This document shows, piece after piece, positions 13,406 through 36,685 of a DNA stretch of 64,000 nt (within the stretch, counting starts at the first letter, position 1; each line of letters begins with the position of its first letter). The stretch comes from Nitrosomonas sp. Is79A3 (lineage in GTDB: Bacteria > Pseudomonadota > Gammaproteobacteria > Burkholderiales > Nitrosomonadaceae). Below the pieces are notes generated by a model. That model made no database searches. It saw only the letters and a program-made list of their open reading frames with translations, and was not told the origin of the DNA. Where the stretch lies: contig NC_015731.1 of the NCBI RefSeq assembly GCF_000219585.1, positions 434,001 through 498,000 on the forward strand, read 5' to 3'. The translations under genes were made by a program, and so were the position numbers.

Positions 13406-13410
13406 CGCGA

Positions 13411-14763: not shown

Positions 14764-14823
14764 TATTATCCCTGCTTGATGATCGATGCTTTCTCAATGT
14801 GCAATTGAACGGTGTGCCATAAT

Positions 14824-16614
14824 TTATTCAGTTTTGGAGTCAACTACATTGGTAGTTTGAGTCGTTTGGTTTTGAGTAGCTTGCTTTTTGGCTTGTTGTT
14901 GTGCCAAAAGCGCTTGTTGTGTTTGCTGCTGTTGTTGGGTCAATGCTTCGATGACTTGGTTAGTCGGGCCAAACATTTTTGCCATGCCATCGTGTAATAA
15001 TAGCAGCTTGTTGGTTGCACTGATAATGCTGGTACGGTGAGTAATCAAGACAATGGTTTTTCCACGTTTACGCAAATCAATGATGGCTGCCAGAAGCGCT
15101 TGTTCTCCCACATCGTCGAGGTTTGAATTGGGTTCGTCGAGAACAATCAATGATGGATCATCATACATGGCGCGCGCTAAGCCGAGACGTTGTTTCTGCC
15201 CGCCAGAAAGACCGGTGCCGCCATCACCCAGTGGTGTGTCGTAGCCGGAGGGCATATTCAGAATCAATTCATGAACTCCCGCTCGTTTGGCTGCCAGAAT
15301 AACCTTATCCGCGTGCACTTCGCCAAAACGCGCGATATTCTCGGAAACAGTTCCGGCGAATAATTCAATATCCTGAGGTAAGTAACCGATATGCGGACCC
15401 AATTCATCCTTGTTCCAGAGATAAACATCCGCGCCATCCAACCTTACTTTCCCTGCAGCAGCAGGCCATACACCAACTAGCAGGCGTGCCAAAGTGGATT
15501 TTCCCGATCCGCTCGGACCAATAATGCCGAGAACCTCACCGGCAGCTAGGGAAAAAGTTAACCCTTTGATAACAGCAACTTTGCCACCGGGCGGAGCCGC
15601 TGTAATATTCTCAACTGCAATAACGCCTTTCGGTTTAGGTAACGCCATGCCTGCTTCGCGCGCCGGATTTTGTTCGAGCAATTTAGTTAAGCGCTCATAA
15701 GCACTCCGCGTGCCGCCAATTTGTTTCCACACACTGATTAATAACTGGACCGGCGCAACGGCTCTACCAAATAGTATTGAGCCAGCAATCATCATTCCGG
15801 GGGTAATGCTGTTATCTAAAACCAGTAAAGCACCTAATCCCAACATGAGTGATTGCAATGCGACTGTAAAAGATTTTGACAGCGCGGTGACAATACCGGC
15901 TTTTTCACTTGCCTCAGCTTGTAAGTTAAGAAATCGGCTATGCAGTTTATACCAGCGTGATTGAATATTGGGCAGCATACCCATGGCCTCAATCACTTCG
16001 GCATTACGCAAATTATTGGATGCCACGTTGGTCGAAGCGACAGCCATTGAATTCGCCTCGGCTAAAGGTTTGTGCGATATTTTTTCATTAATATAGGCCA
16101 AAATGAATAATAGAGTTGTACCGCATAAGGCGAAAACACCCAGAGCAGGATGAAACATGAATATAACGAATATATAAATTGGAAACCAGGGTGCATCAAA
16201 AAAGGCGAACAATGCGTTGCCGGTTAAAAATTGCCGCAAATTGGTCAGATCTTTTAAAGCTTGCCCGGCATTGTTATTGCCTTGTTTTAAGTTTTCTTCA
16301 AAAGCCGCAGTATAGACGCGTTTATTCAATTTCATGTCGAGCTGAGCACCGACGCGAATCAATACAAAACTCCGCACATATTCCAGTGCACCCATAAAAG
16401 CATAAGCACCCAGCATGATCAGTGTCAGCATTAACAGAGTCATTTCGTTGCGGCTGGTTAATACGCTGTCATAGAGCTGCAGCATGTAAATGGCTGGCAT
16501 GAGCATCAGCATATTGATAACAGCGCTAAAGACACCTATGTTTCTAAAGGTTTTCTTAAAGCTGAGCAGTACCTGAGCGATTTCATTCTGAGGCGCTTTA
16601 AATTTTAATTTCAT
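14824..16614 (-). CDS. type I secretion ABC permease/ATPase (PrtD/AprD-like)
   Basis: 596 residues. The N-terminal membrane domain (about 20-310) has six helices. The ATPase has Walker A GPSGSGKST (about 368), signature LSGGQKQRLGLARAM, Walker B LIVLDEPNSNLDD and H-loop LITHRTS. There is no C39 peptidase or C39-like domain, so it belongs to the PrtD/AprD/RsaD class that exports proteins with an uncleaved C-terminal signal. The final 45 residues are an unusual Gln-rich tail (QQQQQTQQALLAQQQ). It is first in the operon ABC-HlyD-TolC. The RTX/S-layer-like protein at 31549 is its most likely substrate, by inference. Confidence 0.92.
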   Translation of the reverse strand: MKLKFKAPQNEIAQVLLSFKKTFRNIGVFSAVINMLMLMPAIYMLQLYDSVLTSRNEMTLLMLTLIMLGAYAFMGALEYVRSFVLIRVGAQLDMKLNKRVYTAAFEENLKQGNNNAGQALKDLTNLRQFLTGNALFAFFDAPWFPIYIFVIFMFHPALGVFALCGTTLLFILAYINEKISHKPLAEANSMAVASTNVASNNLRNAEVIEAMGMLPNIQSRWYKLHSRFLNLQAEASEKAGIVTALSKSFTVALQSLMLGLGALLVLDNSITPGMMIAGSILFGRAVAPVQLLISVWKQIGGTRSAYERLTKLLEQNPAREAGMALPKPKGVIAVENITAAPPGGKVAVIKGLTFSLAAGEVLGIIGPSGSGKSTLARLLVGVWPAAAGKVRLDGADVYLWNKDELGPHIGYLPQDIELFAGTVSENIARFGEVHADKVILAAKRAGVHELILNMPSGYDTPLGDGGTGLSGGQKQRLGLARAMYDDPSLIVLDEPNSNLDDVGEQALLAAIIDLRKRGKTIVLITHRTSIISATNKLLLLHDGMAKMFGPTNQVIEALTQQQQQTQQALLAQQQAKKQATQNQTTQTTNVVDSKTE

Positions 16615-16692: not shown

Positions 16693-17568
16693 TTAACCAG
16701 GTAAATCTTCGGCCGTCAATTCAAACGATCTTGGACAATAGTTTAGATCCCGTTTTGCATCCGAGCAGTCAAATGTCAGATCCTGACTCATTCTTTCCGC
16801 CATTGCAGATGTCCAGCTGCGGTAACGTGGCAGCCAGCTAAGCCCCCGTGCCGCTATCTGAAAAAGCCAGAGCGGTATCGCCAACATGCGTGGCGGATGA
16901 TTTAGTGCCTCAAATACGCGTTTGACCATTTCGCGATAAGGTAAAGTTTCCGCGCCGGTTAGATTATAGGAACGACTGGTCAGATTTAAAGTGTCTAGCG
17001 CCGCATAACATGCTGAAGCGACATCTTCAACGTGAACAGGCTGCCGTAATCCCTTGGCTGATCCCAGCAGTGGAAAGAATCCAAAGCGGCGGATAAATCG
17101 TGCTATCTCAGCAACATTCTTATCGTGTCCGTGTCCATAAATCAGTGTCGGGCGCAAAATGATCCATTTTACCCCATGTGTGGTTGCCCATGTTTGCACA
17201 AGTTCCTCACCTTTTATCAATTGCTGTGCAATTTTTCGTTCGCTGGGGGCGGATGACGTCTCTTTGGTGAAACGGCTGGTGGAAGATAATACGACAATCC
17301 GTCGTGCGCCATAAATTGATAAGAGATCAAAGTGCTCAGGCAATACCCAAATGGGAGCGGCACATATCCAAATAGGGATATTATTTTTTTCTGTGCCGGC
17401 TCTTTGATTTGTTGTATCCAGCTGTTGCCAGGTGATTTGCGGGTGGCTTTGTGTAATCGGGCGGCGAGAAAAGGCAGTGATCTGCCAATTGTTTTGTATC
17501 AATTGTTTCAGTAAGCATTCACCAATTAGACTGGTTGCGCCGAGCAATCCGACATGTCGCTCACTCAT
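16693..17568 (-). CDS. NAD(P)-dependent SDR-family protein, epimerase/dehydratase-like
   Basis: 291 residues with an N-terminal Rossmann motif GLLGATSLIGECLL (the GxxGxxG form). It continues with VVLSSTSRF, WIILRPTLIYGHGHDKN and a C-terminal VKRVFEALN substrate region, as in extended SDR proteins. The canonical YxxxK catalytic pair is not evident at its usual place; the region reads SAPSERKIAQQLIKGEE. The protein may therefore bind nucleotide without epimerase chemistry. It overlaps the upstream glycosyltransferase by eight bases, suggesting a role in making or modifying a sugar or lipid carrier in this surface-glycan cluster. Confidence 0.75.
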   Translation of the reverse strand: MSERHVGLLGATSLIGECLLKQLIQNNWQITAFSRRPITQSHPQITWQQLDTTNQRAGTEKNNIPIWICAAPIWVLPEHFDLLSIYGARRIVVLSSTSRFTKETSSAPSERKIAQQLIKGEELVQTWATTHGVKWIILRPTLIYGHGHDKNVAEIARFIRRFGFFPLLGSAKGLRQPVHVEDVASACYAALDTLNLTSRSYNLTGAETLPYREMVKRVFEALNHPPRMLAIPLWLFQIAARGLSWLPRYRSWTSAMAERMSQDLTFDCSDAKRDLNYCPRSFELTAEDLPG

Positions 17569-18478
17569 GTTTTTGTTTCAGCGACTTATAACAATTTTGT
17601 AGCGAATAGAATATTACAGTGATACCGAAGCGGAGCCATACGGCGAAGGTGACTAGCCCCATCAGCGCGCGTGGATACTGATGTTGAAAAAATTTCCGGT
17701 AAAAACGCCGCATACCTTTATGCTTATGCCAAGCAACAAAAAATGGCCTGGCACGGCTGCAGGTTCCCTGAAAATGGGTAACCGGAGCATCCGGTACAAA
17801 AAAAATTTTCCAGTTTTTTTGCTTAAATCGCATGCACCAATCCAGATCTTCACAATGTAAAAAATAATTTTCATCCCAGGAACCGACATCATCGATGGCT
17901 TCACGCCGCACCAGCATCAGTGCGCCTGATATGGCTTCAACTTCAACGGGAGCTTGTGGCAATGGTTGTTTATCCAGATGAAAATCAAAAAACAACTGTG
18001 GCCAGTATTTCGCCAGATGATATAGCCCAAAGGCACGCACAAACGCCCGCCAGGGTGAAGGGATAGCGCGCCGCCCACCACCTTGCTCGGAACCATCCGG
18101 GTTAATCAGATATCCACCGACCATGCCGATATGTGGATTTGATTCCATTACCTGAACCACGCGTTGTAATGAACCGGCGCTCAAAATACAGTCGGGATTC
18201 AGGAAAAGTATATAGGGTTGAGTTGATGCAGAAAGGCCGATATTGCAACCAGCGGCAAAACCCAGGTTTTTACCGGTTGTAATTAAATTTAAGCGATTTT
18301 CATCAGAGAAACAATATCTTAATCGTTCCATGCTTAGATCTTCCGAAGCATTGTCGACAATAATGACTTCCTGTGCTTGTTCAAGCGCGGCGTGAACGCA
18401 CTGGGTTAATAGTTGACCGGCATTGTGATTTACAATCAGTATTGATACTGATTGCAGATTGTGTGTTTCTGTATCCAT
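17561..18478 (-). CDS. family 2 glycosyltransferase
   Basis: 305 residues from the ATG at 18478, which follows AAAGAG by six bases; upstream in-frame starts overlap the previous gene and lack this site. A GT-A fold is visible: SVSILIVNHNAG, VIIVDNASEDL, GKNLGFAAGCNIGL, ILFLNPDC (the DxD-like position), GGYLINPDGSEQGGGRR and ALMLVRREAIDDVGSWDENYFLHCEDLDWCMR. The C-terminal end has a hydrophobic segment (ALMGLVTFAVWLRFGITVIFY) that may sit in the membrane. It resembles rhamnosyltransferase-like enzymes that build surface polysaccharide. Confidence 0.88.
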   Translation of the reverse strand: MDTETHNLQSVSILIVNHNAGQLLTQCVHAALEQAQEVIIVDNASEDLSMERLRYCFSDENRLNLITTGKNLGFAAGCNIGLSASTQPYILFLNPDCILSAGSLQRVVQVMESNPHIGMVGGYLINPDGSEQGGGRRAIPSPWRAFVRAFGLYHLAKYWPQLFFDFHLDKQPLPQAPVEVEAISGALMLVRREAIDDVGSWDENYFLHCEDLDWCMRFKQKNWKIFFVPDAPVTHFQGTCSRARPFFVAWHKHKGMRRFYRKFFQHQYPRALMGLVTFAVWLRFGITVIFYSLQNCYKSLKQKHE

Positions 18479-18488
18479 TGGTAACTCT

Positions 18489-19412
18489 TTATAGTTTTCC
18501 TGTCCGCCGGTTAAATCCATCCTTCAGACCTTTTAGCATCATATGCAAATTGGCTATTCGATTGGGTGAAAATAACGTGAAAAAAAATAGCATGCATAGA
18601 ATACGCAGCTTGTCGGCCCGTTTCCACGCTTCAGGCATATAAGGACGTTGCCACAGCAATGCGCTATTTCTAAACATATAATAATAGCGGAAAGGCTGAT
18701 GAAAAGAGATATTTCGCCAGCGCCCCCACCAGATGCGAATGTGCTTGTCACCTAAGGAATGTTGCATGAAAGCGTCACATACTCCGTATAAAGCAAAGCC
18801 TTTAGACTGTGTCCGAAAACACCATTCTGTATCAATGTGATCAATAAAAAGTCCAACATCCATTTCGCCCACTTGTTCCAATGCGTGCATCGCAATGAGT
18901 GAACCAGAGGAAATCAGAAAATCTGCGCGTAGATAGTTGGTGTTTTTATCATTGAATATTCGCGCTAACCTAAATCGGGAAATGCGCACAAATTGTGATA
19001 GTTGTGAAGATGTGCTATCGCGGTAACGCGGCGCAACAGCGCCAACCAAGATACCCTGTTTTTCAAGATTTTGGTATGCGTTATGTAATTTGCTCAGCAT
19101 ATTTGATTCCGGGATGCTGTCTTGATCCATGAGTAGCACAAAAACAGCGTTCAAGTCACGCGCTTCTGCTATGCCAGTATTAAAGGCTTTTCCCAAACCA
19201 CTATTATGTGGCAGTTTGATCAGATTGATTCTATTGAAGCATTCCTCATCAAGACGTTGAATGATTTCCGTGACATCGCACGTCGAATCATTATCCACAA
19301 TAACAACGTATTGGACTTGTGAAAGCAACGAAGTGAGATTGTCAATCAATGTGGATTCATCGGGATTAAAAGTGACGACAATCGGTACAATGTCGGTATG
19401 CAATTTTTTCAA
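18489..19412 (-). CDS. family 2 glycosyltransferase, rhamnosyltransferase-like
   Basis: 307 residues. Motifs: VPIVVTFNPDESTLIDNL, YVVIVDNDSTCDV, HNSGLGKAFNTGI, VFVLLMDQDSIPE, SSGSLIAMHALEQVGEMDVGLFIDHIDTEWCFR and the H-x-x-G tail region AFMQHSLGD. The layout fits rhamnosyl transferases of O-antigen pathways. It ends ten bases before the next glycosyltransferase, probably in one transcript. The two are similar in layout and may be old duplicates. Confidence 0.88.
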   Translation of the reverse strand: MKKLHTDIVPIVVTFNPDESTLIDNLTSLLSQVQYVVIVDNDSTCDVTEIIQRLDEECFNRINLIKLPHNSGLGKAFNTGIAEARDLNAVFVLLMDQDSIPESNMLSKLHNAYQNLEKQGILVGAVAPRYRDSTSSQLSQFVRISRFRLARIFNDKNTNYLRADFLISSGSLIAMHALEQVGEMDVGLFIDHIDTEWCFRTQSKGFALYGVCDAFMQHSLGDKHIRIWWGRWRNISFHQPFRYYYMFRNSALLWQRPYMPEAWKRADKLRILCMLFFFTLFSPNRIANLHMMLKGLKDGFNRRTGKL

Positions 19413-20581: not shown

Positions 20582-23500
20582 ATGGCCATTGCAAACGAAG
20601 AAGAGCTATTGTCGTTAATAACGACCACATTTCCACCAGCCCAAAATGTTCTCGTTATCGCGCCACACCCCGACGACGAAGTGTTCGGCTGTGGCGCGAC
20701 CCTATCACTACTGCAAAGCGGCGGGAGCAGGATCACGACCATTATCGTGACCAACGGTGCTTTAGGCGGCGACAATGCCGATAGGAAACTGATCGAATTG
20801 CGCGCCGAGGAATCCCGCGCTGCCGCCAGGCTGCTGGGATTCAACACGCCGATATTCTGGGGTCTGCCGGATCGTGGCGTCAGCTATGGCGAGGTGTTGA
20901 TCGGACGACTGATTGAAACAATTCGCGATACCGATGCCGACCTGGTATTTCTCCCATCGCCCACTGACTGGCATCCCGATCATCAGGCCATTGCCTTTGC
21001 CGGCGCCGAAGCCGTTCGTCGTGTAGGCGGCCAGAGACAGGCAGCGTTCTACGAGGTGACCGACCCATTACCCTATCCCAACCTGATTCACGACATCGGA
21101 GCGACAGAAGAGAAAAAGCGTCAGGCGATGCGTTGTTTTCCTTCGCAACTGCAGGAACAACCCTACGACGCCCGTATTTCTGGAATCAACAGTTTTCGAG
21201 CAATGCACCTGGGAGCGCAGGTAAAAAGCGCCGAAGCCTTTATGGTGCTGACGGCCACTGATCTTGGCAAGCGCTTGTCCATTTTGCTCGACGGGCCGAT
21301 GGCCCACCGACGCAGCTTTGGCTTCGCCACCAGTGGCTGCGACATACCGCTGGTGAGCGTGATCATCCGCAGCATGGATCGACCAACCTTGACAGACGCA
21401 CTCGATTCTCTGGCCTTACAAACCTATTCAAATATCGAAGTGGTGCTAGTGAATGCGAAGGGCTCCGGACACCAACCAGTAGAGCCATGGTGCGGGCGCT
21501 TTCCTGTCAGGGTAGTCGATACCGGCGAACGCTTGCCGCGCAGCCGAGCGGCAAACATGGGGCTGGATGCCGCACAAGGCGAATATTTGATCTTCCTGGA
21601 TGACGATGATTGGTTCGATGCCGATCATATTCAGAAACTGGTGGCCGCGCTTAGGCAACACCCCGAGCTCAAGGTGGTTTACACGGGCGTCAGAAGTATT
21701 GATGAACGGGATAATCCACTCCCCAACACCTTTTCATTTCCATTTGATTCGATCAGGCTGCTGGCGGTGAATTTCATTCCGATTCATGCAATCCTGTTTT
21801 CCAGGACATTGCTTGAGCTTGGCTGTCGTATCGACGAATCCTTTGAAATCTACGAGGATTGGGACTTTTGGATACAGCTGTCCCGATTCTCGGACTTTTT
21901 GTTTGTTGATGGGGTAAGTGCGACTTATCGAATCAATCAACAGGCCGGATCGGGGGTGCATTTGAACGGTTCGATCACAGAAACTGCCAAGCTGGTCATC
22001 CTCAGGAAATGGCACGATGCGCTGTCTGACGATCAAGTGATCAAAATAATGCAGGCTGTGCAGCAGAGCCCGATAAAAGATGGCCAGATTTCCAATCTTC
22101 ACCGTGCCGTAGCCGAGCGCGACGGGCGGCTCGCCAGTCTTAATCACTGCGTGGCAGAGAGCAATCAGCGGCTCATGCACCTTGAGCATGAGATTTCCGA
22201 GCGAAACGGAATTGTTCAGGCTCAGGCACAGACCATCGCCGAACTGCAGAATTCATCCAGCTGGCGAGTAACCCGCCCGTTGCGTTATGTCGGTCGCCTG
22301 TGGCGCAAAGCTCAGGATGTAAAAAATGGGGCCCAGAGGTTACTTCAACGCGAGTCGTTGCCGGAACTTTCAAAAAGGCTGCTGAGGGTTTTGCGCCAGG
22401 AGGGGGTGAAGGGTGTGAAGGTGCGCATTCGTCAACAATATTACCTGGCAACACAGGTGACAAGCGCATCGCCGCCGGTACTGTCGCCGACCAAGCTGGG
22501 CTTCCAACTCGAACCAGCAGCCATCGTACGTGATCGGCAGGGACACTATGCCCTGGCGTCGAGGCCCGGGGGTTACACCTACATTGAGCCGCAACGCCCG
22601 GCGAATCTCAACAGCCGACTTGCGCGGCTGCAATCCCTGCCCTCTTTTTCAATCGTGGTACCGGTTTACAACACGCCAATCGAACTCCTCGATGCATTAC
22701 TCGCTTCCGTCCAGGCTCAGTGGTACCCGCATTGGCAATTGGTACTTGCTGACGATGCCAGTCCAGCCGAGGAAATCCGCAAAGCCTTGGCACGGATAGA
22801 TCACCCGCAAATCAAGGTGCTGTTTCTGGAAAAGAATCAGGGTATTGCGGGGGCGACCAATGTAGCGATTGAGGCTGCTAGTGGCGATTTCATCGTGTTC
22901 ATGGATCATGATGACGAACTTACCGTGGACTGTTTGTATGAACTCGCGCTGTGCATCGAGCGAGAGCAGCCAGACTTCGTCTATAGCGATGAAGACAAAA
23001 TCACCGAATTTGGCGATTATAGTGAACCTCACTTCAAACCGGACTGGTCCCCCGACACGATGATGAGCACGATGTTTACCTGCCACGTATCCTGCATACG
23101 ACGCAGTTTGCTTGATACGGTGGGCGGATTGCGCTCGCAGTACGATGGCTGCCAGGACTGGGATTTTGTTCTGCGCGTGTCCGAGCAGACCGATCGCATC
23201 AGTCATGTCCCTAAGGTGCTTTACCACTGGCGCATCATTCCGGGCTCGATTGCGTCTGACATCTCAGCAAAATCCTACATACTGGATGCATCCAAACGAG
23301 TTCGGGAAGACGCACTGGCCCGCCGTGGTCTTGTCGCGACAGTTGAGCCAATCGAACAGATCAGTGGCTATTTCCGCGTGGCCTACCAATTGCAAGGCAA
23401 CCCGCTGATCTCGATCATCATACCCACGCGCGACAATGTAAAAATTCTGCGCCGCTGCATCGACTCGATCCTGCAAACGACGGGCTATCGCCATTTTGAG

Positions 23501-24226
23501 CTGGTCATCTTGGACAACGGGTCTGTTGACCCGGCTTCTGTAGCCTACCTGCAGCAGATCAACGGGAAGGATGGCGTCAAAGTAATTCGGCACGATGCCC
23601 CATTCAACTTCTCCGAATTGAACAACATTGGCGCACGTACCTCTACTGGCGAGCTGCTGCTGTTTCTCAATGACGACACCGAAGTGCTGCAGCGGGACTG
23701 GCTGGAGCGCCTAGGCGGTTTTGCCCAGTTGGCACATGTCGGCGCGGTGGGCGCGAAACTTCTGTATCCGGGAAGAAAACAGGTTCAGCATGCAGGTGTC
23801 CTGAACCTCGAAGGTGGACCGGGGCACGCCTTTCTGATGCAGGACTGCGACGCTCCCGGCTACTGCATGCGCAACCTCCTGGAATACAACTGGCTGGCGG
23901 TGACGGGCGCCTGCCTGATGGTATCCCGGGATAAATTCGATGCCATAGGAGGATTCTGCGAGACCCTGCCGATTGCCTATAACGATATCGATTTGTGCAT
24001 GCGCCTGCACGATGCTGGTTTTTACAATGTGGTTTGCCAGGCGGTTCGCCTGACGCATCACGAGTCGGCATCGCGCGGCCTCGACAATACTGATCCCAAA
24101 AAGGCCGCCCGCCTGCGGCGCGATCTTGTCCAACTTTATGAGCGCAACCCCGGCTATTTCCAGCACGATCCCTTCCACAACCCAAACCTGCGCCCCAATG
24201 GAATCAATTTTGAGGTACCTGCTTGA
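20582..24226 (+). CDS. PIG-L deacetylase fused to three family 2 glycosyltransferase domains
   Basis: 1214 residues. Residues 1-245 are a PIG-L/LmbE-type zinc deacetylase: VLVIAPHPDDEVFGCGATL and the second metal site DWHPDHQA. Residues about 252-480 are a GT2 domain (PLVSVIIRSMDRPTL, LIFLDDDDWFD). Residues 500-560 are a predicted coiled coil, ending in the SSWRVTRPLRY linker common in such glycosyltransferases. A second GT2 is at about 688-900 (FSIVVPVYNTPIELLD, VFMDHDDELT, SDEDK) and a third at about 939-1180 (PLISIIIPTRDNVK, LLFLNDDTEVL, NDIDLCMRLHDAGF). Codon use is GC-rich compared with its neighbours, suggesting transfer. Probably builds and N-deacetylates a surface glycan. Confidence 0.9.
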   Translation: MAIANEEELLSLITTTFPPAQNVLVIAPHPDDEVFGCGATLSLLQSGGSRITTIIVTNGALGGDNADRKLIELRAEESRAAARLLGFNTPIFWGLPDRGVSYGEVLIGRLIETIRDTDADLVFLPSPTDWHPDHQAIAFAGAEAVRRVGGQRQAAFYEVTDPLPYPNLIHDIGATEEKKRQAMRCFPSQLQEQPYDARISGINSFRAMHLGAQVKSAEAFMVLTATDLGKRLSILLDGPMAHRRSFGFATSGCDIPLVSVIIRSMDRPTLTDALDSLALQTYSNIEVVLVNAKGSGHQPVEPWCGRFPVRVVDTGERLPRSRAANMGLDAAQGEYLIFLDDDDWFDADHIQKLVAALRQHPELKVVYTGVRSIDERDNPLPNTFSFPFDSIRLLAVNFIPIHAILFSRTLLELGCRIDESFEIYEDWDFWIQLSRFSDFLFVDGVSATYRINQQAGSGVHLNGSITETAKLVILRKWHDALSDDQVIKIMQAVQQSPIKDGQISNLHRAVAERDGRLASLNHCVAESNQRLMHLEHEISERNGIVQAQAQTIAELQNSSSWRVTRPLRYVGRLWRKAQDVKNGAQRLLQRESLPELSKRLLRVLRQEGVKGVKVRIRQQYYLATQVTSASPPVLSPTKLGFQLEPAAIVRDRQGHYALASRPGGYTYIEPQRPANLNSRLARLQSLPSFSIVVPVYNTPIELLDALLASVQAQWYPHWQLVLADDASPAEEIRKALARIDHPQIKVLFLEKNQGIAGATNVAIEAASGDFIVFMDHDDELTVDCLYELALCIEREQPDFVYSDEDKITEFGDYSEPHFKPDWSPDTMMSTMFTCHVSCIRRSLLDTVGGLRSQYDGCQDWDFVLRVSEQTDRISHVPKVLYHWRIIPGSIASDISAKSYILDASKRVREDALARRGLVATVEPIEQISGYFRVAYQLQGNPLISIIIPTRDNVKILRRCIDSILQTTGYRHFELVILDNGSVDPASVAYLQQINGKDGVKVIRHDAPFNFSELNNIGARTSTGELLLFLNDDTEVLQRDWLERLGGFAQLAHVGAVGAKLLYPGRKQVQHAGVLNLEGGPGHAFLMQDCDAPGYCMRNLLEYNWLAVTGACLMVSRDKFDAIGGFCETLPIAYNDIDLCMRLHDAGFYNVVCQAVRLTHHESASRGLDNTDPKKAARLRRDLVQLYERNPGYFQHDPFHNPNLRPNGINFEVPA

Positions 24227-27018: not shown

Positions 27019-28839
27019 TTACCGAAAATCCTTATCACCACTCATTAACCACCAGTGATTCTTCAGAGTTTCTGGGGGCGTTCCATGACTCCAGGCATTA
27101 GCGGGTATGCGGATATCTAGCGGTTGTTGTTTTCCACCAGAGGTTGCGAAATATGAAGTGAAGTTTCCGGTAATATGACAAAACACCCGTGTAGCGCCGT
27201 ATATGCCAGCCAGTCGTCTCGCATGCGTAATCAACAATGGAATTTCAGCTAACGGTGCGATGAGATCAACGATTTCACAACCTTCCGGATCAAAGCGCAG
27301 TACCAAAATACCCCGCGCACGTCGATTGAAACGATTTTTCACTAGCATGATTTGATATTGCTGACTGGGATGATCGAGGTAACGATATTGCAGATAATTC
27401 CAGTCGCGAATGCCGATGATTGCGGTTTGCAGATCGGCGGCCATGCGATGCCAGCATTCGTTAACGGCGGTTATTACAAAGTCTGTTTGTTCTCTGCCAA
27501 TCAGGTACAGACGTGTTCCCCAAAGCGGGAATCGTGACCGGGTGTTCCATGAAAATTCAATCATGCGACCGACCTCAGCGTATAACCCAAGCCGTTCTGC
27601 AACTTTCATGGCGCGTTCGTTGGGGAAACCAAAACCCACCAGATAGGGTTTATTATAGCCGATGTAGCGTTCCAGAAAAGTTGCTGCCATTAGGAAAAAA
27701 GGCCCTTTTCGGGTGAGCGTGCCGCGTTCATTCGTATCCACCATCACATCCCCTATCTGCACAGCGGTTTGAGGTTGACCAAAAAACAGGATTTTCCGGC
27801 CAACGCCACCATAATGAGCGATTAATTGATTGTCCCGCCAAATACCAATTTCACGTCCTGAATTTGAGTCGTATTTCCATTGCCATGTGGCCGGCGTCAT
27901 GTCGTGATGGAATGTTTTCTTAAACAAGCCGAACATTTCCGGAGTCTGGCTTTTTTCTAGAATCTGCAGGCGCCACTTGGGCACCGTTTTTTTTCTGAAA
28001 TGTAACAAGGCATAGCCATAATGTCCGCTGGCATATTTTTTGTGATAGGTCCGGTTCGATTCATCCAGTTGAGCGAGCTGTTCATCGGTCAAGGCAAGGT
28101 CTTTGATCAGACTTTGTCGATGAGTTGCAGTAAAGCGCAATAGATAATCCAGTGTGGGTGCTGCCTGAGTGGATAGATCCATGCGCTCAACCAGCTCAAA
28201 TCCGAACCGTTCTGCAAGTGCTACCATATCTTCAAGCAGATGAAGACCCCCAATTCCTGCTTCATCATATTTCAGTGCGAATTCATCAATAATGACTAAA
28301 TCACCGGATAAGGGGAGCAGATCGAGTGCTTTATTAAAAATGACCAACGGCTCGATATATTGTGCGGATTCTTGTAATAGCACGACATCAAAGCTTTCTG
28401 GATGGGCTTTAAAATCTTGCAGCGAATGGCAGCTTACGGAAGCCCCTGAATTCAAGTTTTTTTGAATATAAGCGATTTGTTGTGCGTCGGGAGTGATGCC
28501 ATGGATATCATAACCGCGCTGATTTAATAGGGAAAGAGTGGTGCCCAGACCAACACCCACTTCCAGAATGCGGCAAGGAGGCGGCGGTAGCCTGGCCATC
28601 AACAGATCCGTAGAAAATTGCTGTGCCGTCTGCAGGCTGGTTTGGTTATCTTGGAACAACCCATAATGTAGATAGGTGGCTTTGCCTTCCTCTAACAGCA
28701 AGGCATGCGCATAGACGTTCAGCGGGAAAGTAAGATCTTTGAAAGGAGAAGGTGAAGATGTGGCAATCGAAGCGGCATAACCGGTTTGCCGATAGTATCG
28801 AGAACCTTGCGCTGAGTTGTGATTAACTGTCTTGGTCAT
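27019..28839 (-). CDS. methyltransferase-acetyltransferase (GNAT-like) fusion
   Basis: 606 residues. The first half is a class I SAM-dependent methyltransferase: motif I RILEVGVGLGTTLSLLN at about 88, acidic position GITPD, then VVLLQESAQYI and LVIIDEFALKYDEAGIGG. From about residue 310 the protein reads as an acetyltransferase-like domain (LFKKTFHHDMTPATWQWKYDS, QIGDVMVDTNERG, GFGFPNERAMKVAERLGLY). It overlaps the Wzt-like gene by 17 bases and so is probably co-transcribed with the polysaccharide exporter. Inference: it caps or decorates the exported glycan. A methyl cap that ends chain growth is known for some ABC-exported O-antigens. Confidence 0.8.
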   Translation of the reverse strand: MTKTVNHNSAQGSRYYRQTGYAASIATSSPSPFKDLTFPLNVYAHALLLEEGKATYLHYGLFQDNQTSLQTAQQFSTDLLMARLPPPPCRILEVGVGLGTTLSLLNQRGYDIHGITPDAQQIAYIQKNLNSGASVSCHSLQDFKAHPESFDVVLLQESAQYIEPLVIFNKALDLLPLSGDLVIIDEFALKYDEAGIGGLHLLEDMVALAERFGFELVERMDLSTQAAPTLDYLLRFTATHRQSLIKDLALTDEQLAQLDESNRTYHKKYASGHYGYALLHFRKKTVPKWRLQILEKSQTPEMFGLFKKTFHHDMTPATWQWKYDSNSGREIGIWRDNQLIAHYGGVGRKILFFGQPQTAVQIGDVMVDTNERGTLTRKGPFFLMAATFLERYIGYNKPYLVGFGFPNERAMKVAERLGLYAEVGRMIEFSWNTRSRFPLWGTRLYLIGREQTDFVITAVNECWHRMAADLQTAIIGIRDWNYLQYRYLDHPSQQYQIMLVKNRFNRRARGILVLRFDPEGCEIVDLIAPLAEIPLLITHARRLAGIYGATRVFCHITGNFTSYFATSGGKQQPLDIRIPANAWSHGTPPETLKNHWWLMSGDKDFR

Positions 28840-30115
28840 TATGCGTGCTAATATGGTTATTTTCCCACTGATGAGGAATTGAAAAATATCCCTGCAAACG
28901 GCTTGTTTGTTTTACCTGTAAGGTTGCCACACTTTCTGCTGCATCATAGAGATGTATGCCGCGCTCACAGAGCAGATATACATTAATCTGATACTCACCC
29001 TTTAGTAACGGTACTTGATCCAGTCTGAGACAAATCTGTCCATATCCTTCGGAATTGCGTTGCACACTAAACTGGTCTTCCCATGTTGCTGCACTGGTGA
29101 CTGTGCGGCCATCTTTTGCTTGTAATGTTATTCCCACATTGGGGCAAGGCAATGAAGGGTCGGAAGCAAAGGTGATCCATAACTTGATGCCGGATTGACC
29201 GCTTGTGATGATAGCATGCTGCGTGATGATCTCATTTGCCAGTAACTTGACTTTATCCAGATGAGCGCTACCCGATGTGTGATTCCTGGTAAATGCAGAG
29301 GCGTCAGTATGGATATCGGGTTTTTCAGGTGTTGAGTTTGTCATGCTTTGATCCAGAAATGCCTGGTAAGCGGATACCACTTGCGCCGATTCGCCATCTA
29401 AAATAATTTTTCCCTGATTAATCCAGACGGCGCGGCTGCATAAAGATTCAACCTGAAACAGCGAATGTGAGCAGAATAGAATTGTTTTTCCCGCATCGCG
29501 CATGTGCATGATGCGGTCAAATGATTTGCGAGCGAAAGCGCCATCGCCAACTGATAAGGCTTCATCAATGACTAGAATATCCGGATCGACATTAATCGCA
29601 ACAGAAAATGCCAGGCGCACATACATGCCACTGGAATAAGTTTTGACCGGTTGATCAATGAAATCACGAACGCCTGAGAAATCAATAATATCTTCTATAC
29701 GATCGGCAATCTCGGATTGACTGAATCCCATGATCGCCGCGCTCATTAGAACGTTTTCACGGCCGGTAAACTCGGGATTAAACCCGGCGCCCAGTTCCAG
29801 CAGAGCAGCAACCCGGCCATTTACCCGTACTTCACCCTGAGTGGGCGTTAAAATGCCGCAAACCAATTGCAGCAGTGTCGACTTTCCGGAGCCGTTTTGA
29901 CCTACGATACCAATAACTTCTCCTGGCATCACAGTCAAATCAATATCGTGCAGCGCCCATAACTCACGATAAAATTGACGTGACCCCCACCATTTGTGCG
30001 GCCACAAGAATTGCTTTAAACGATCCTTGGGGTGCTGATACAACTGATAGCATTTGGATAGCTTTAAGGCGCTAATGGCTGTTTTAGAATTGGCTGGATT
30101 AGAGAACATCAGCAA
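28823..30115 (-). CDS. wzt: polysaccharide ABC exporter ATPase (Wzt-type)
   Basis: 430 residues. The ATPase half has Walker A GQNGSGKST (about 72), the polysaccharide-type signature KTYSSGMYVRLAFSVA, Walker B ILVIDEALSVGD and H-loop FCSHS. It includes the LELGAGFNPEFTGRENV stretch typical of Wzt/TagH. The C-terminal 170 residues are a beta-rich domain (IKLWITFASD, QICLRLDQVPLLKGEYQINVYL) resembling the Wzt glycan-recognition domain that reads the chain end. The gene overlaps the permease by 17 bases; a second start at 30109 is equally possible. Confidence 0.9.
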   Translation of the reverse strand: MLMFSNPANSKTAISALKLSKCYQLYQHPKDRLKQFLWPHKWWGSRQFYRELWALHDIDLTVMPGEVIGIVGQNGSGKSTLLQLVCGILTPTQGEVRVNGRVAALLELGAGFNPEFTGRENVLMSAAIMGFSQSEIADRIEDIIDFSGVRDFIDQPVKTYSSGMYVRLAFSVAINVDPDILVIDEALSVGDGAFARKSFDRIMHMRDAGKTILFCSHSLFQVESLCSRAVWINQGKIILDGESAQVVSAYQAFLDQSMTNSTPEKPDIHTDASAFTRNHTSGSAHLDKVKLLANEIITQHAIITSGQSGIKLWITFASDPSLPCPNVGITLQAKDGRTVTSAATWEDQFSVQRNSEGYGQICLRLDQVPLLKGEYQINVYLLCERGIHLYDAAESVATLQVKQTSRLQGYFSIPHQWENNHISTHNDQDS

Positions 30116-30929
30116 ATCCCTTGCGTGTTTTCATAAACCACATCAAACCGACCCAAGCAATAATACAGGCAAGCATATAATAAATAACTAAGCCACTCCA
30201 ATCCGGGAGTTGGCCATATAAGGTTACTGCCCGTGCTTGTTCTATGACAAAAGTAAGCGGGTTGAGAAATAGATAATCACGAACAGATTCCGGCAATGCA
30301 GAAGCAGGATAAAAAATTGGACTCATAAACAGTAACATGGTCAATATCAGGCCAATAAATTGTCCAATGTCACGCACATAAACCCCGATTGAAGCAAGCA
30401 TCCAGGACAATCCCAAGACGAGTAATAGCAGTGGCAGTATGATAATAGGCAAACAAATCAGAGTCCAATGAATGGGGTGATCAATAACCAGTATGAAAAT
30501 AACTAACACCAAAAAACTAATTCCGGCATGAAATAGTGCGGAACCTAAAGAAACCAACGGTAAGATTTCCAGCGGGAAAATAACTTTCTTAACATAATTG
30601 ACATTGGCGAGTACCAACCCTGGCGCACGGGAAAGGCATTCGGAGAATAAATTAAATAAAATCAATCCGGTAAATAATAATAATGCAAAGGCAAATTTAT
30701 CATCATATATATCAGTGTTCTGCGGATCTAAGCGTATTTTAAATACTACGCCGAAAACAAATGTATAAATGGCCAGCATCAAAATGGGATTGACAAATGT
30801 CCATAATAATCCCAGAAACGAGCCTCTGTAGCGGCCAATCACTTCCCGCTTGATCATTTGCAAGATAAGCGGGTAGTGTTGCCGAAGGCTTAGGAAGTTA
30901 TCTAAAAAGGTAGTGGTGAACAGATGCAA
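30099..30929 (-). CDS. wzm: polysaccharide ABC exporter permease (Wzm-type)
   Basis: 276 residues with six predicted helices and an N-terminal cytoplasmic LILQMIKREVIGRYRGSFLGLLW, the signature of ABC-2 polysaccharide exporters. It continues with FGVVFKIRLDP and a C-terminal MSPIFYPASALPE and LNPLTFVIEQARAVTLYG. Together with the Wzt-type ATPase it should flip a lipid-linked glycan across the inner membrane. First gene of a three-gene minus-strand unit (permease, ATPase, methyltransferase-acetyltransferase). Confidence 0.92.
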   Translation of the reverse strand: MHLFTTTFLDNFLSLRQHYPLILQMIKREVIGRYRGSFLGLLWTFVNPILMLAIYTFVFGVVFKIRLDPQNTDIYDDKFAFALLLFTGLILFNLFSECLSRAPGLVLANVNYVKKVIFPLEILPLVSLGSALFHAGISFLVLVIFILVIDHPIHWTLICLPIIILPLLLLVLGLSWMLASIGVYVRDIGQFIGLILTMLLFMSPIFYPASALPESVRDYLFLNPLTFVIEQARAVTLYGQLPDWSGLVIYYMLACIIAWVGLMWFMKTRKGFADVL

Positions 30930-31548: not shown

Positions 31549-33927
31549 ATGGCTATAACGAGTACACAGAAAACTGAAATTCTGAAGATTGTTGCAGGTT
31601 TATTCAATGCAGCACCGGGCGGTAGCAATCTAACTGAGCTGGCAAATTTGGTTTCCGGTGGAATGACCACCAGTCAATTGGCCGATGCATTAGCTGCTAA
31701 CACATTGTTCACTAACGGCATTATGGGCGGTAAGGTTACAGTAGAAGATCAAGCTGCCGTTTTGGCACATAACTTTGGTTTGGCGGCTGATAGCGATCCA
31801 GCAAGTGCGGGCTCTCAAGCTGAAGCATACTTTACACAACTAATTAATGACGGTGTTGGATTTGGTAATATCGTTGTTCAAGCAGTAACTTATCTGTCGG
31901 GCACTCCAGCAACAGAGTTTACTGAGGCCGCAACATTACTGGATAATAAAGTATTGGTATCTGATGCGTATTCGAAAGCAGCTTCTGCCAGCGATTTAGA
32001 TACTCTGCAAAAGGTTTTGAGTAATGTCACGGGAACAGCACCATATACCGATGCAGATGTGGAAGCTATATTGAAAGATAGTGGAACGGCGGGTGGTAAA
32101 ACATTTACGCTTACTAATACTACGGATGCATTTACCGGTACTTCCGGTGATGATATCTTTATTGGTGATAATGTTTCCGCTTCAGCGGGTGATACCTTGG
32201 TTGGTGGAACAGGCACTGATACTCTGAAAGTATATGGCACAAATACTGTTCCCAATATTTCGGGTATTGAACAGGTCTATTACAATGCTCCGGGTGGCGC
32301 GATTGATCTATCTTCCAAATCTGATGTGAAGTCAGTTGAGGTGGATGGGTTTGGTACAAACACCGTGACTATTGGTTCTGATCAGGCAGTCAAGCTGACC
32401 AATCAGGTGGCAACTACAACTGCAACTATTTCTGGTAATACACCGACGAGCCTGGGATTGACACTGAATAAAGCCGGTGACAAAACAGCCGGAAATGCTA
32501 CCGTTGACTTGACAGGAACAGCATTGACAACATTGAGTGTAACGGCTTCTGGAAATGATAGTTATGTTACATTGACAAATGCTGGTGCTAAGCTTGCGAC
32601 CATCAATGTGGCAGGTGATAAGAATGTTACGATTCAAGAAGTGTTGACAACAGTAAAAACAATTGATGCACACACTGCAACTGGGAATGTAACGATTGGT
32701 CCAGCCGCTGTTGCTACGTCTGATCTGACTTTTACTGGTGGTTCAGGAAATGACAAGATTGTGATGGGTGCAACCGTAACTGCTTTGGATGTGCTGAAAG
32801 GCGGTACAGGTACCGATACGCTGAGTGTTTCTGATGCAGATACTATTGATACCGCTGCTGAAGTAATTGGCATCACTGAGTTTGAAACTTTTGAAGCTGC
32901 CGGTGTAGATGCAACTGCTTATAATTTGTCTATAATCGGTGCGAAAAATACACTTTCTGGTTTGGTAGTTAGTGCAACAGGTGGTGCAGCTACGATCTCA
33001 AATCTGAACGCAGCAACAACAGGTAATATCACCATAAACGGTGCAGCACCAACAACTATTACCTTAACAGCCGCTGATTTTGTATCAGGCGGTACCAGTG
33101 ATACAGCAACCATCAGCTTGGATAACAGTGTCACTAAGAGTGGTACGGGTATTGATGTGACTTCTCTGGTGTTTGCTAATGCTGACGTTATCAACTTAAA
33201 ATCCATTGGTGACGGTTCTTCTACCAAAACAGTGGGTGGTGCGGAAGAGAACTCAGTTATTCTGACCGCAAGTGATGCTGAGAAAGTAGTTATTACCGGC
33301 GACGAAGCATTAAGTTTTGCGACTGCAGCGGGTACTAATCCAACTGAAGTTGATGCATCCGGCTTGACCAATGATGCGGCAGTAACTATCGACACCGATG
33401 CATCGGCTATCACATCGCTGCTGGCTAAAGGTACTGGTAAAAACGACACCATCGATATCGATAACGCTGCGACCGTAACTTCAACCTTATACTTAGGCGG
33501 TGGTTCTGATACTGTGACAGTCGATGGTGGTGGTACTGATGCGCATACCTTGATTTACACTGCAACTGCATTGAATGCGGGTGATATTAAAGCAGGAGAT
33601 TCTTCAACACTGGCTTTAACTGGTGTAGCGGCAGGCGATACCGTAACCATCAACTTCTCGTCTGCTTTGGAAGCACTGTTGAAGAGCGGTAGTACGCTGT
33701 TGTCGGCTACTGGTGCTAACATCAATGTTCATGGTACAACAATTAGTGCTACTACGAATATTGCTGCAGCAGAAGTTGGTGGTACCATGACCCTTCAAAT
33801 TGACGTAAATGGCGATGGAGCTTACGCTGCTGCTGATGATTATCAGTTGACGATTACCGGTACAGGTACCGATGATACGTTGATTTATAACGCTGCTGCC
33901 GATACGCTGGTCTTTACAGTGGTTTAA
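31549..33927 (+). CDS. RTX/S-layer-like surface protein, predicted type I secretion substrate
   Basis: 792 residues, acidic and rich in Thr, Ala, Gly, Asp and Val, with no Arg, Cys or Trp; 28 Lys and 4 His are the only basic residues. No N-terminal signal peptide. Residues 1-165 are helical (TEILKIVAGLFNAAPGG, QAAVLAHNFGLAADSDPAS). The rest is beta-repeat sequence with RTX-like calcium motifs: GTSGDDIFIGD, GGTGTDTLKV, GGSGNDKIVM, GGTGTDTLSV, GGGSDTVTV. The C-terminus (GTGTDDTLIYNAAADTLVFTVV) has the hydrophobic ending of uncleaved type I signals. This combination resembles RsaA-type S-layer proteins. A strong ribosome-binding site and a strong terminator flank it, as expected for an abundant product. 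Confidence 0.85.
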   Translation: MAITSTQKTEILKIVAGLFNAAPGGSNLTELANLVSGGMTTSQLADALAANTLFTNGIMGGKVTVEDQAAVLAHNFGLAADSDPASAGSQAEAYFTQLINDGVGFGNIVVQAVTYLSGTPATEFTEAATLLDNKVLVSDAYSKAASASDLDTLQKVLSNVTGTAPYTDADVEAILKDSGTAGGKTFTLTNTTDAFTGTSGDDIFIGDNVSASAGDTLVGGTGTDTLKVYGTNTVPNISGIEQVYYNAPGGAIDLSSKSDVKSVEVDGFGTNTVTIGSDQAVKLTNQVATTTATISGNTPTSLGLTLNKAGDKTAGNATVDLTGTALTTLSVTASGNDSYVTLTNAGAKLATINVAGDKNVTIQEVLTTVKTIDAHTATGNVTIGPAAVATSDLTFTGGSGNDKIVMGATVTALDVLKGGTGTDTLSVSDADTIDTAAEVIGITEFETFEAAGVDATAYNLSIIGAKNTLSGLVVSATGGAATISNLNAATTGNITINGAAPTTITLTAADFVSGGTSDTATISLDNSVTKSGTGIDVTSLVFANADVINLKSIGDGSSTKTVGGAEENSVILTASDAEKVVITGDEALSFATAAGTNPTEVDASGLTNDAAVTIDTDASAITSLLAKGTGKNDTIDIDNAATVTSTLYLGGGSDTVTVDGGGTDAHTLIYTATALNAGDIKAGDSSTLALTGVAAGDTVTINFSSALEALLKSGSTLLSATGANINVHGTTISATTNIAAAEVGGTMTLQIDVNGDGAYAAADDYQLTITGTGTDDTLIYNAAADTLVFTVV

Positions 33928-33972: not shown

Positions 33973-34009
33973 AAAAAGGGCCAAATCATTTATGATTTGG
34001 CCCTTTTTT
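33973..34009 (+). terminator. strong intrinsic terminator after the S-layer-like gene
   Basis: A 17-base perfect stem (AAAAAGGGCCAAATCAT with ATGATTTGGCCCTTTTT) with a two-base loop runs into a six-T tract. Confidence 0.95.
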
Positions 34010-34173: not shown

Positions 34174-35709
34174 ATGAACAACTGGACTGATGGTTATGTA
34201 GCGGATATTGGCTATACATACGGATACTATTCTGAACTTAATCCATTAAGGATAAAGCAGATATTTCTATATTCCGGCCTGAAATTTCCTGAGATAGGCA
34301 CTGCATGTGAATTGGGTTTTGGCCAAGGTATAAGTATCAATGTGCATGCAGCAGCTTCTGCAATTGATTGGCATGGAACGGATTTTAATCCATCACAGGT
34401 TGTATTCGCTCAGGAAATGGCTAATGCCTCAAGCTCAGGAACAAAGTTGTTTGACGATAGTTTTGAAAGTTTTGCAAGCCGTACGGATTTGCCCGATTTT
34501 GATTTTATCGGTATACACGGTATCTGGAGTTGGATTAGTGATGAGAACCGCGCAATTATAGTTAATTTTATCCGCCGTAAATTGAAAGTGGGTGGGATTT
34601 TGTATATTAGCTATAACACATTGCCCGGTTGGTCATCTTTTGCACCAATGCGACATTTATTAACCGAACATGCAAAAATTCTTGGATCGGAAGGGTATGG
34701 AATTATCAATCGAATAAATGGTGCACTTGAATTTTCAGAAAAACTATTGAAGATTGATCCAAAATTCTTAAAAAACAGTCCGCAAATTGCAGAACGCATT
34801 GATAAATTGAAAGAGCAGAACCGGCATTATTTAGCACATGAATATTTTAATCGCGATTGGCATCCTATACATTTTGCAACGATGGGGAATTGGCTTGCTC
34901 CAGCGAAACTTAGCTATGCTTGTTCGGCAAATCAGCTCGATCACCTTGATGTTTTGAATTTGTCGAGCGAACAGCAAGCTTTGCTTAACACTATTCCCGA
35001 TGCGATGTTCCGAGAGAGTGTGCGCGATTTTATAGTAAATCAGCAATTTCGCCGTGATTACTGGGTTAAAGGGGCTTGTAAGCTATCTGCTTTAGATAAA
35101 GATAATGAGTCACGCACACTTCGAGTAATTTTAACAGTGCACCGCACAGAAATAGTTCTCAAAGTAACAGGCAGTTTAGGTACAGCCACATTAAGTGACT
35201 CAGTTTATGGGCCGATTTTGGATTATTTGGCAGATCATAAGATTAAATCACTTGGTCAGATTGAGCAGGCAGTAAAGGATAAGGGGATAGCACTATCCGA
35301 GATTATTCAAGCTGCAATGCTACTAATTGGCTCGGGCCAAATTTCGTTGGCACAAGAAGAAGATATTATTGTTAAGGCTAAAAAACGTACAGATAAGCTA
35401 AACAACTTTATTATGCGAAAAGCTAACAGTAATGGGGACATCACATATCTTGCCAGTCCCGTTACTGGTGGAGGATTATTTGTCGGGCGTTTTCAACAAT
35501 TATTTCTGCTGGGGTTAAGCAATGGTTTGAAACAGCCTGGTGATTTTGCGCAGTTTGTGTGGCAAATTCTGGGAGGGCAAGGACAAAGAATCATTAACGA
35601 AGGTAAAGTGTTGGAAACTGAAGAAGAAAATATTAAGGAATTAACCGAACAAGCAATAGTATTTTTGGAAAAACAATTGCCGATTCTAAAAGCTTTACAG
35701 GTTGTTTGA
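34174..35709 (+). CDS. protein lysine methyltransferase-like (rickettsial PKMT type)
   Basis: 511 residues. Residues about 1-170 form a class I SAM-dependent methyltransferase: a lead-in DIGYTYGYYSELNPLRI typical of this family, motif I ACELGFGQGISINVHAA at about 48, then GTDFNPSQV and LPDFDFIGIHGIWSWIS. The middle carries the methyltransferase regulatory region (FNRDWHPIHFATMGNWLAPAKLSYACSAN) and the C-terminal 200 residues are helical. The organisation matches the Rickettsia enzymes PKMT1 and PKMT2, which methylate lysines of the surface protein OmpB. Position 246 bases after the S-layer-like gene suggests that protein as substrate (inference). No signal peptide: it would act before export. 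Confidence 0.8.
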   Translation: MNNWTDGYVADIGYTYGYYSELNPLRIKQIFLYSGLKFPEIGTACELGFGQGISINVHAAASAIDWHGTDFNPSQVVFAQEMANASSSGTKLFDDSFESFASRTDLPDFDFIGIHGIWSWISDENRAIIVNFIRRKLKVGGILYISYNTLPGWSSFAPMRHLLTEHAKILGSEGYGIINRINGALEFSEKLLKIDPKFLKNSPQIAERIDKLKEQNRHYLAHEYFNRDWHPIHFATMGNWLAPAKLSYACSANQLDHLDVLNLSSEQQALLNTIPDAMFRESVRDFIVNQQFRRDYWVKGACKLSALDKDNESRTLRVILTVHRTEIVLKVTGSLGTATLSDSVYGPILDYLADHKIKSLGQIEQAVKDKGIALSEIIQAAMLLIGSGQISLAQEEDIIVKAKKRTDKLNNFIMRKANSNGDITYLASPVTGGGLFVGRFQQLFLLGLSNGLKQPGDFAQFVWQILGGQGQRIINEGKVLETEEENIKELTEQAIVFLEKQLPILKALQVV

Positions 35710-35766: not shown

Positions 35767-36465
35767 TCATAAAATTAATTCAGATATTTCCGAATTTAAT
35801 TGCTGACACATGAGAAGTGGATCGTTTGCCTGAGTGATTGGCCTGCCGATAACCAAATAATTTGAACCTTTCTGAATAGCCTGCCGTGGTGTTGTAATTC
35901 TTTTTTGATCATCCGCTCGATCATTGAGTGGGCGAATACCGGGCGTGACCAAGCAGAAGTCTTCTCCAATTTGGTGCCGTAGATTTGCTGCTTCCAATGC
36001 AGAACAAACCACGCCATCTAAAGCACAGTCTTTGGTTAATCGCGCCAGGCGCACTACAATTTGCTCGGGATTGCCTTGTAATCCGATATCGGCGAGGTCG
36101 TTTTCATCCATGCTGGTGAGTAAAGTGACCGCGATTAGTTTGGTTGATCCTTGTGCAATGGCTTCACGAGCCGCTAATAACATTTTTCGCCCGCCCAGCG
36201 CATGGACATTAATCATCCAGACGCCTAAATTAGCCGCAACTTTACAGGCATTGGCAACCGTATTGGGGATATCGTGAAATTTGAGATCCAGAAATATGTC
36301 GAAGCCTTTCAGCATCAGTTTTTCTACCAGATTCGGTCCGGCTGCTGTGAAAAGTTCTTTGCCCACTTTTAGGCGGCAAAAGCGGGGCTCTAGTTTTTCA
36401 GCTAATCTCAACGCATCTTCAGCACTGGAAAAGTCAAGTGCCACTATGATGCGCGGGTTATGCAT
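35767..36465 (-). CDS. pyrF: orotidine 5'-phosphate decarboxylase
   Basis: 232 residues from the ATG at 36465 ([14 protein letters not shown]); the longer frame to 36507 would run into lapA. Catalytic segment [14 protein letters not shown] with the Lys and Asp of the active site, then [12 protein letters not shown], and the phosphate-binding end VTPGIRP and YLVIGRPIT. It makes UMP in the last step of de novo pyrimidine synthesis. It lies ten bases after lapA, the standard betaproteobacterial arrangement. Confidence 0.95.
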
Positions 36466-36475
36466 GGGAGGTACT

Positions 36476-36685
36476 TTATTTATGGGTGTTACAACGGCAT
36501 CGCACAAAGATTAGGGCGATAAGACTGCCCAGTGCGAAGAATATCAGCAGCGCAACACTTAAAGGAAGCTCGATCGATTTGTCCAGATAATAAAACAATT
36601 CAATTGGTTGTGCATTTTTGGAAGCGAATACAGCAAGAATTACAAAGACTACAATGCGCAAAAACCAAGCGATTATGTTCATCAT
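36476..36685 (-). CDS. lapA: LapA domain (DUF1049) inner membrane protein
   Basis: 69 residues with two membrane helices: [23 protein letters not shown] and [20 protein letters not shown]. The central [20 protein letters not shown] is the family signature. It normally stands before lapB, which helps control LpxC and lipopolysaccharide levels. LapB is absent here; pyrF follows directly. Starts at M36685 or M36682. Confidence 0.85.

Follow-up and report, generated by a model that had tools for sequence, protein, structure and literature searches.

Why should a gene for a predicted protein methyltransferase lie directly behind the gene for a putative coat protein in Nitrosomonas sp. Is79A3? The question arises in a stretch of 64,000 nucleotides (NC_015731.1, positions 434,001 to 498,000), referred to here as the window. 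There, an open reading frame on the forward strand starts with ATG at 34174, ends at 35709 and encodes 511 residues, with exactly the boundaries first noted for it, and a gap of 246 bp separates it from a preceding same-strand gene for an RsaA-like S-layer protein (31549-33927). From sequence, profiles and a structure model, its product is predicted to be an outer-membrane-protein-type lysine methyltransferase of the subfamily that we call A-type. A single match to the enzyme was found across the 3.78 Mb genome. The original prediction had described a Rickettsia-type enzyme of multi-part build, paired with an S-layer-like gene, and had proposed that lysine methylation of an S-layer in such a bacterium would be new.

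The predicted protein is composed of a SAM domain containing D70 and H115, a regulatory region, a middle part and a helical C-terminal part. Residues 216-299 match the Pfam family MethyTransf_Reg (PF10119) with an E-value of 1.1e-32 and 113.1 bits, against a cut-off of 25.5, while four generic methyltransferase Pfam models match within residues 44-149, each below its own cut-off. The sole sequence relatives in the PDB at E <= 1 (phmmer) are the Rickettsia enzymes PKMT1 (8.6e-19) and PKMT2 (2.7e-15). An AlphaFold2 model built from a 21-sequence alignment (mean pLDDT 91.8, pTM 0.90) matches PKMT1/2 over nearly its entire length in Foldseek (E 4.0e-23) and PKMT2 over 461 residues in VIA-align (Z 26.8, rmsd 4.3), and the build of SAM domain, regulatory region and helical C-terminus that had been proposed therefore appears to be real. 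The next-best distinct PDB entry for the model was the histone H3K79 methyltransferase Rv2067c. By alignment, D70 and H115 correspond to D102 and H146 of PKMT1 (PDB chain numbering is one higher), which Inoue et al. describe as SAM contacts (PMC11784438), and all 105 proteins in the alignment carry both residues. The full-length fold, the PF10119 region above its cut-off and the SAM-contact residues together place the protein among the outer-membrane protein-lysine methyltransferases.

At the subfamily level the label "Rickettsia-type" proved to be wrong. The PF10119 proteins that we scored fall into two groups, 50 A-type and 31 R-type among 81 open reading frames, each of which either favours one of two profiles by 88 bits or more or matches just one of them; the profiles were built partly from proteins later scored with them. 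With its own row excluded from the A-type profile, the window methyltransferase reaches 787 bits there versus 117 bits with the R-type profile, whereas PKMT1 reaches 553.8 bits with the R-type profile versus 139.7 bits with the A-type profile, which in that comparison includes the window row. Membership in the Rickettsia-type cluster, OM PKMT R, was rejected because the two enzymes favour opposite profiles. The two-way split agrees with the clusters A (with KmtA) and R that Inoue et al. 2024 describe (PMC11784438) and puts the window enzyme on the non-Rickettsia side, probably within OM PKMT A alongside Acinetobacter KmtA.

The gene upstream encodes a 792-residue protein, the presumed substrate, with 28 lysines and neither arginine nor cysteine. 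No Pfam or NCBIfam family scored above cut-off for it, and a PDB sequence search returned nothing convincing (best E 0.54). Its predicted structure (mean pLDDT 79.5, pTM 0.62) consists of a helical N-terminal domain, at about residues 1-180, followed by beta-rich repeats. Six chains of Caulobacter RsaA are its sole PDB structure matches at E <= 0.001, the best with an E-value of 3.7e-12 at about 20% identity and with a loose global superposition (TM about 0.3; 0.31). The model thus supports the earlier description of this same-strand neighbour as S-layer-like.

The pair belongs to an island that also carries an O-antigen exporter and a type I secretion system. On the reverse strand lie an ABC-2 permease of the Wzm type, part of an O-antigen or polysaccharide exporter (30099-30929), a Wzt-type ATPase with a Wzt_C domain (28823-30115) and a two-domain methyltransferase and GNAT protein that probably acts in O-antigen modification (27019-28839). 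The same strand carries a complete type I secretion system at 12065-16614, all of its components scoring above their cut-offs: a PrtD-family ABC transporter (14824-16614) and an HlyD-family adaptor (13411-14763), each the only one above cut-off in the genome, and a TolC-family outer membrane channel (12065-13405). Three further reverse-strand genes (16693-19412) encode an NAD-dependent epimerase and two glycosyltransferases, including a member of the rhamnosyltransferase family, and a forward-strand gene (20582-24226) encodes a large protein that combines a PIG-L deacetylase domain with several glycosyltransferase domains of family 2. Both the PrtD/HlyD/TolC and the Wzt/Wzm exporters may serve the S-layer-like protein. 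At the far left of the window (2798-5092), an ABC transporter associated with cyanophycin metabolism was also identified (1423.5 bits, cut-off 880).

The pairing of the two genes recurs within the genus. A profile search found PF10119 in 25 of 125 family genomes, every one of them in Nitrosomonas, and an S-layer homologue was found in 71 of the 125. Both genes are present in 23 genomes, 48 have the S-layer homologue alone and two (G063 and G085) have the enzyme alone; methylation would therefore be optional, since 48 of the 71 genomes with the homologue have no enzyme and two of the 25 carriers have no detected homologue. In 18 of the 25 carriers, counting the window, the S-layer homologue is followed immediately by the enzyme on the same strand, with a gap of 74-338 bp, so that the proposed check of co-occurrence came out favourably in the genus. 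Among the seven unpaired carriers, L064 and L075 end at contig edges, and L067 has directly upstream a trypsin-like/Calx-beta gene of surface type, a class that we define by rule of thumb (length >= 300, Cys <= 0.35%, G+A+T+S+N+D >= 45% and Arg <= 3.5%). The remaining four (L058, L060, L068 and L069) have neither an S-layer homologue nor a surface-type gene upstream, and three of these four genomes hold an unlinked S-layer homologue elsewhere. Two single loci deserve separate mention. L067:1134-6681 has a GT41 gene, the trypsin-like/Calx-beta gene and the methyltransferase in a row beside pyrF, in a genome with no detected S-layer homologue, and the S-layer gene at L059:9271-11651 (genome G024) is split over two open frames, through either sequencing error or a broken gene.

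The pair is found in either of two chromosomal contexts, one between wzt-wzm and pyrF-rpsA, where pyrF (35767-36507 on the reverse strand of the window) forms a conserved right-hand border, and the other between DUF484-like and TauE-like genes (L061, L066, L072 and L077-L079; these names come from a reading of N-termini, the flanks of L072 are covered in part, and L078 has a different downstream flank). We rejected the explanation that the pairing is a mere effect of the conserved wzm/wzt-pyrF neighbourhood because the pair is also present in this second context. The contexts also bear on the possibility that the methyl acceptor is a small molecule or a glycan, such as the O-antigen, the presumed anchor of the S-layer. 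A generic SAM domain and the wzt, wzm and methyltransferase-GNAT genes just upstream would fit such an acceptor, but the stretches examined for the second context show no wzm/wzt beside the pair, many S-layer loci with wzm/wzt have no enzyme, and the whole fold, including its C-terminal half, is that of PKMT1/2, with a histone methyltransferase as the next distinct entry. We consider a glycan or small-molecule acceptor very improbable.

Beyond Nitrosomonas, the 80 nearest loci among the matches listed included eight of the same genus; 64 of the other 72 had at least 1300 bp of upstream sequence, and a surface-type protein no more than 300 bp away was counted as an upstream partner. Among these listed matches, 20 of 64 enzymes follow a same-strand surface-type gene at a distance of 75-249 bp, none of the 64 has one upstream on the opposite strand, and downstream of 61 enzymes there is one on the same strand and three on the opposite strand. 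Other genes of the same loci served as controls, and 11 of 410 had a surface-type gene upstream (Fisher p 6e-12, with related rows not independent). Seven of the nine partners scanned, out of the 20, carry RTX repeats or DUF4214 above cut-off. Stutzerimonas kunmingensis 28M-8 (L284) and Limnohabitans sp. Rim11 (L251) are environmental carriers from outside the genus. The concern that homologues might be found mostly away from S-layer or autotransporter genes thus applies outside the genus, where 44 of 64 relatives among the matches listed are not directly behind a surface-type gene and a minority of 20 are, and does not apply within it, where 18 of 25 are paired. In even samples across classes and phyla (55 loci, with short contigs kept in and L142 having no intact enzyme open reading frame), a surface-type gene lay directly upstream in four of 24 A-type and none of 30 R-type loci, with three R-type loci having one 0.5-1.7 kb away. 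The pairing belongs to part of the A-type family and not to the whole of it. A tandem pair of R-type methyltransferase genes was seen at L157:1006-4154.

We examined nine of 32 plasmid matches, eight of which were annotated. Two of the eight (in Ruegeria and plasmid 2 of Rhizobium rhizoryzae) have an annotated surface-type gene directly upstream, two others (Sulfitobacter and Rhodospirillum) carry it upstream at a distance of up to about 1.5 kb or immediately downstream, and four have no surface-type gene listed nearby, one of these lying near the record start with an incomplete gene table. On the Ruegeria plasmid, an RTX surface gene, the enzyme, a DUF6447 gene and the type I ABC and HlyD genes form one same-strand cluster.

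Between the S-layer gene and the methyltransferase of the window, a custom scan identified a hairpin followed by a T run (33978-34003, forward strand) that resembles an intrinsic terminator. Of 38 pairs (18 from the genus and 20 from outside it), 34 have the same arrangement between the genes, the exceptions being L065, L071, L302 and L321, while 23 of 760 letter-shuffled control spacers scored positive. A standard terminator scan of the window does not list this hairpin, and our guess is that its A-T-extended stem absorbs the T run, which the custom scan permits. The hairpin sequence is alike across several genera, roughly CCCC...GGGG and then Ts (spacers of L251, L257, L264, L270, L284, L293, L299 and L308). 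A terminator at this position is likely to limit the enzyme to catalytic amounts relative to an abundant S-layer substrate.

The position behind the S-layer gene is not reserved for the methyltransferase. In a hand count of 37 loci where it is bracketed by the S-layer gene and pyrF, 24 hold no open reading frame of 120 residues or more, 11 hold the enzyme, one holds GT41 genes (L196) and one a trypsin-like gene (L209); the 24 empty slots do not represent a rate because enzyme-free loci were selected on the genome's lack of the enzyme (44 of the 48 genomes concerned). GT41 genes, of the O-GlcNAc-transferase/SPINDLY type, are the immediate downstream neighbours of the S-layer gene in three genomes (L196:5844-10420, L202:5924-8119 and L234:3211-5670). 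GT41 matches occur in 23 of the 125 family genomes, mostly on other contigs or at other places than the S-layer match.

Such varied occupancy could also mean that the enzyme is a protein-lysine methyltransferase with another main substrate (a pilin, flagellin, adhesin or different type I substrate) and that the S-layer site is merely a safe place for insertion near a strong terminator. The trypsin-like/Calx-beta cargo of L209 and the unpaired carriers in the genus (seven of 25, two of them at contig ends) would accord with this, as would the difference in substrates between KmtA and the PKMTs (AtaA and OmpB, respectively; PMC11784438). An insertion site of convenience does not readily account for the recurrence of the pair in a second chromosomal context, for the RTX/DUF4214 surface partners of other genera, which among the matches listed are upstream on the same strand in 20 cases versus four downstream, or for the observation, presented below, that the neighbour's lysine content and not its arginine content tracks the enzyme. 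We regard another main substrate as unlikely and favour the adjacent S-layer protein.

A FastTree phylogeny built from 97 enzymes requires no fewer than seven changes of the genus label and no fewer than 18 of pairing. Enzymes situated behind the S-layer gene at the wzm/wzt locus fall into three separate, supported clades, namely the window clade of 10, an 11-row clade with L062, L065, L073 and L080, and L076 together with L077-L079. A-type enzymes from Chlorobiaceae assemblies (L248, L291 and L316) sit among the proteobacterial ones, a placement that suggests either inter-phylum transfer or binning error.

Lysine content links the S-layer proteins themselves to the enzyme. The analysis covered 69 of 78 loci (seven enzyme loci lack an S-layer homologue within the stretch covered, and L191 and L226 failed the filters) and 65 of the 71 homologue-bearing genomes, four others being left out and L059 being represented by the first half of its split gene. 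Mean lysine content is 3.84% in the 18 homologues beside an enzyme, 1.83% in the 48 beside neither an enzyme nor a GT41 gene and 1.39% in the three beside GT41, which are lysine-poor. Coat proteins with a partner have roughly twice the lysine content, a pattern suggestive of methylation of the coat by the enzyme ahead of export. Lysine-rich proteins, with over 2% lysine beyond residue 200, make up 17 of 18 homologues with an adjacent enzyme, five of seven with an enzyme elsewhere in the genome and eight of 44 without one. In a phylogenetic regression (lambda 1) that used a tree built from the first 220 residues of the homologues, an adjacent enzyme adds 1.00 percentage point of lysine (SE 0.26, p 2.7e-4) and an enzyme anywhere in the genome adds 1.08 points (p 1e-5); beyond residue 200 the effects are +1.37 (p 1e-5) and +1.56 (p 6e-9), respectively. 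Arginine is unrelated to the enzyme in the same regression (0.01, p 0.94), and G+C has no effect.

Shared ancestry or base composition could in principle yield such a correlation as a by-product, with the pairing in the genus inherited from one event. Enzyme-adjacent S-layer proteins do group together on their tree, and a stricter independent-pairs test, in which the lysine effect is not significant, was low in power, its pairs being too few to reach 0.05 for either lysine against an enzyme in the genome (mean 2.8 concordant and 0.0 discordant) or lysine against adjacency (mean 1.5 and 0.2). The regression, however, retains its p of 2.7e-4 at lambda 1, is unchanged by a G+C covariate and gives no effect for arginine, and the genus enzymes are scattered over the family tree, with its seven or more changes of genus label, so that a by-product of descent or base composition seems improbable to us. 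We read the lysine link as co-evolution of the enzyme and the composition of its presumed substrate.

From the computed fold and subfamily of the enzyme, its SAM-contact residues, the S-layer-like fold of its neighbour, the pairing, the terminator-like hairpin and the partner-lysine link, we infer, with a probability of roughly three in four, a cytoplasmic lysine methyltransferase dedicated to the RsaA-like protein encoded just upstream. The SAM-dependent enzyme would transfer methyl groups to many of the 28 lysines of this protein on chains that are nascent or still unfolded, and the PrtD/HlyD/TolC system would then export the methylated chain, which would assemble on O-antigen. The terminator between the genes would hold the enzyme at catalytic amounts. 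A lysine-rich substrate fits this scheme, as the rickettsial enzymes and KmtA methylate numerous sites with no sequence consensus reported by Inoue et al. (PMC11784438). For the coat, methylation may alter charge, hydrophobicity, assembly, or resistance to phage or proteases. More broadly, the spot behind the S-layer gene could be an exchangeable "coat-finishing" slot, in which lineages gain, lose and swap cytoplasmic enzymes, either methyltransferases of several clades or enzymes of the O-GlcNAc-transferase type, with the residue content of the coat following the enzyme; we hold the odds of this wider interpretation to be about even.

Several features set the proposed system apart from those described previously. 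With Rickettsia PKMT1 and PKMT2 (OM PKMT R, acting on OmpB) the window protein shares the full-length fold, the SAM-contact residues and a PF10119-type region, but it belongs to another subfamily, has F71 in place of PKMT1 L103, and would act on an RsaA-like protein encoded near a type I system, whereas OmpB is an autotransporter. KmtA of the non-pathogen Acinetobacter sp. Tol 5 (OM PKMT A) methylates more than 130 lysines of the trimeric autotransporter AtaA, according to Inoue et al. (PMC11784438). KmtA and the window enzyme probably share a subfamily, and the methylation of numerous lysines on an abundant surface protein, which KmtA performs in an environmental bacterium, is also what is proposed here; the presumed substrate differs in class and secretion route, and no gene pairing is reported for KmtA in the sections of that paper covered here (PMC11784438). 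The predicted fold of the neighbour and the PrtD-family and O-antigen exporter genes nearby resemble the arrangement of Caulobacter RsaA with its type I exporter. We know of no partner methyltransferase for RsaA; a PF10119 gene is present in the control genome of Caulobacter vibrioides. The flagellin lysine methylase FliB represents an enzyme family different from that of the window methyltransferase. FliB also carries out multi-lysine methylation of a surface polymer, as Inoue et al. note (PMC11784438).

Lysine methylation of an S-layer is not new in principle because OmpB, itself a substrate of this enzyme family, is required for the Rickettsia S-layer (PMC13337285). What is new here is the substrate class, an RsaA-like S-layer protein that is presumably type I-secreted, together with the genetic evidence for its predicted methylation. 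In the open-access literature, we found no description of the pairing, of methylation of an RsaA-like S-layer or of an exchangeable slot.

If the proposed role is correct, multi-lysine methylation by this enzyme family would extend from two experimental cases, OmpB and AtaA, to the RsaA-like S-layers of free-living bacteria. Orphan members of the family would gain a predicted substrate through gene order, and cultured, free-living organisms, among them Nitrosomonas sp. Nm33 (L301), which has the pair, would become test systems for these enzymes. The way in which the neighbour's lysine content tracks the enzyme offers a sign, open to direct testing, that a modifier and its substrate's composition evolve together. 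Should the notion of a coat-finishing slot also prove true, multi-lysine methylation of type I-secreted S-layers would be a widespread and genetically addressed modification of bacterial coats.
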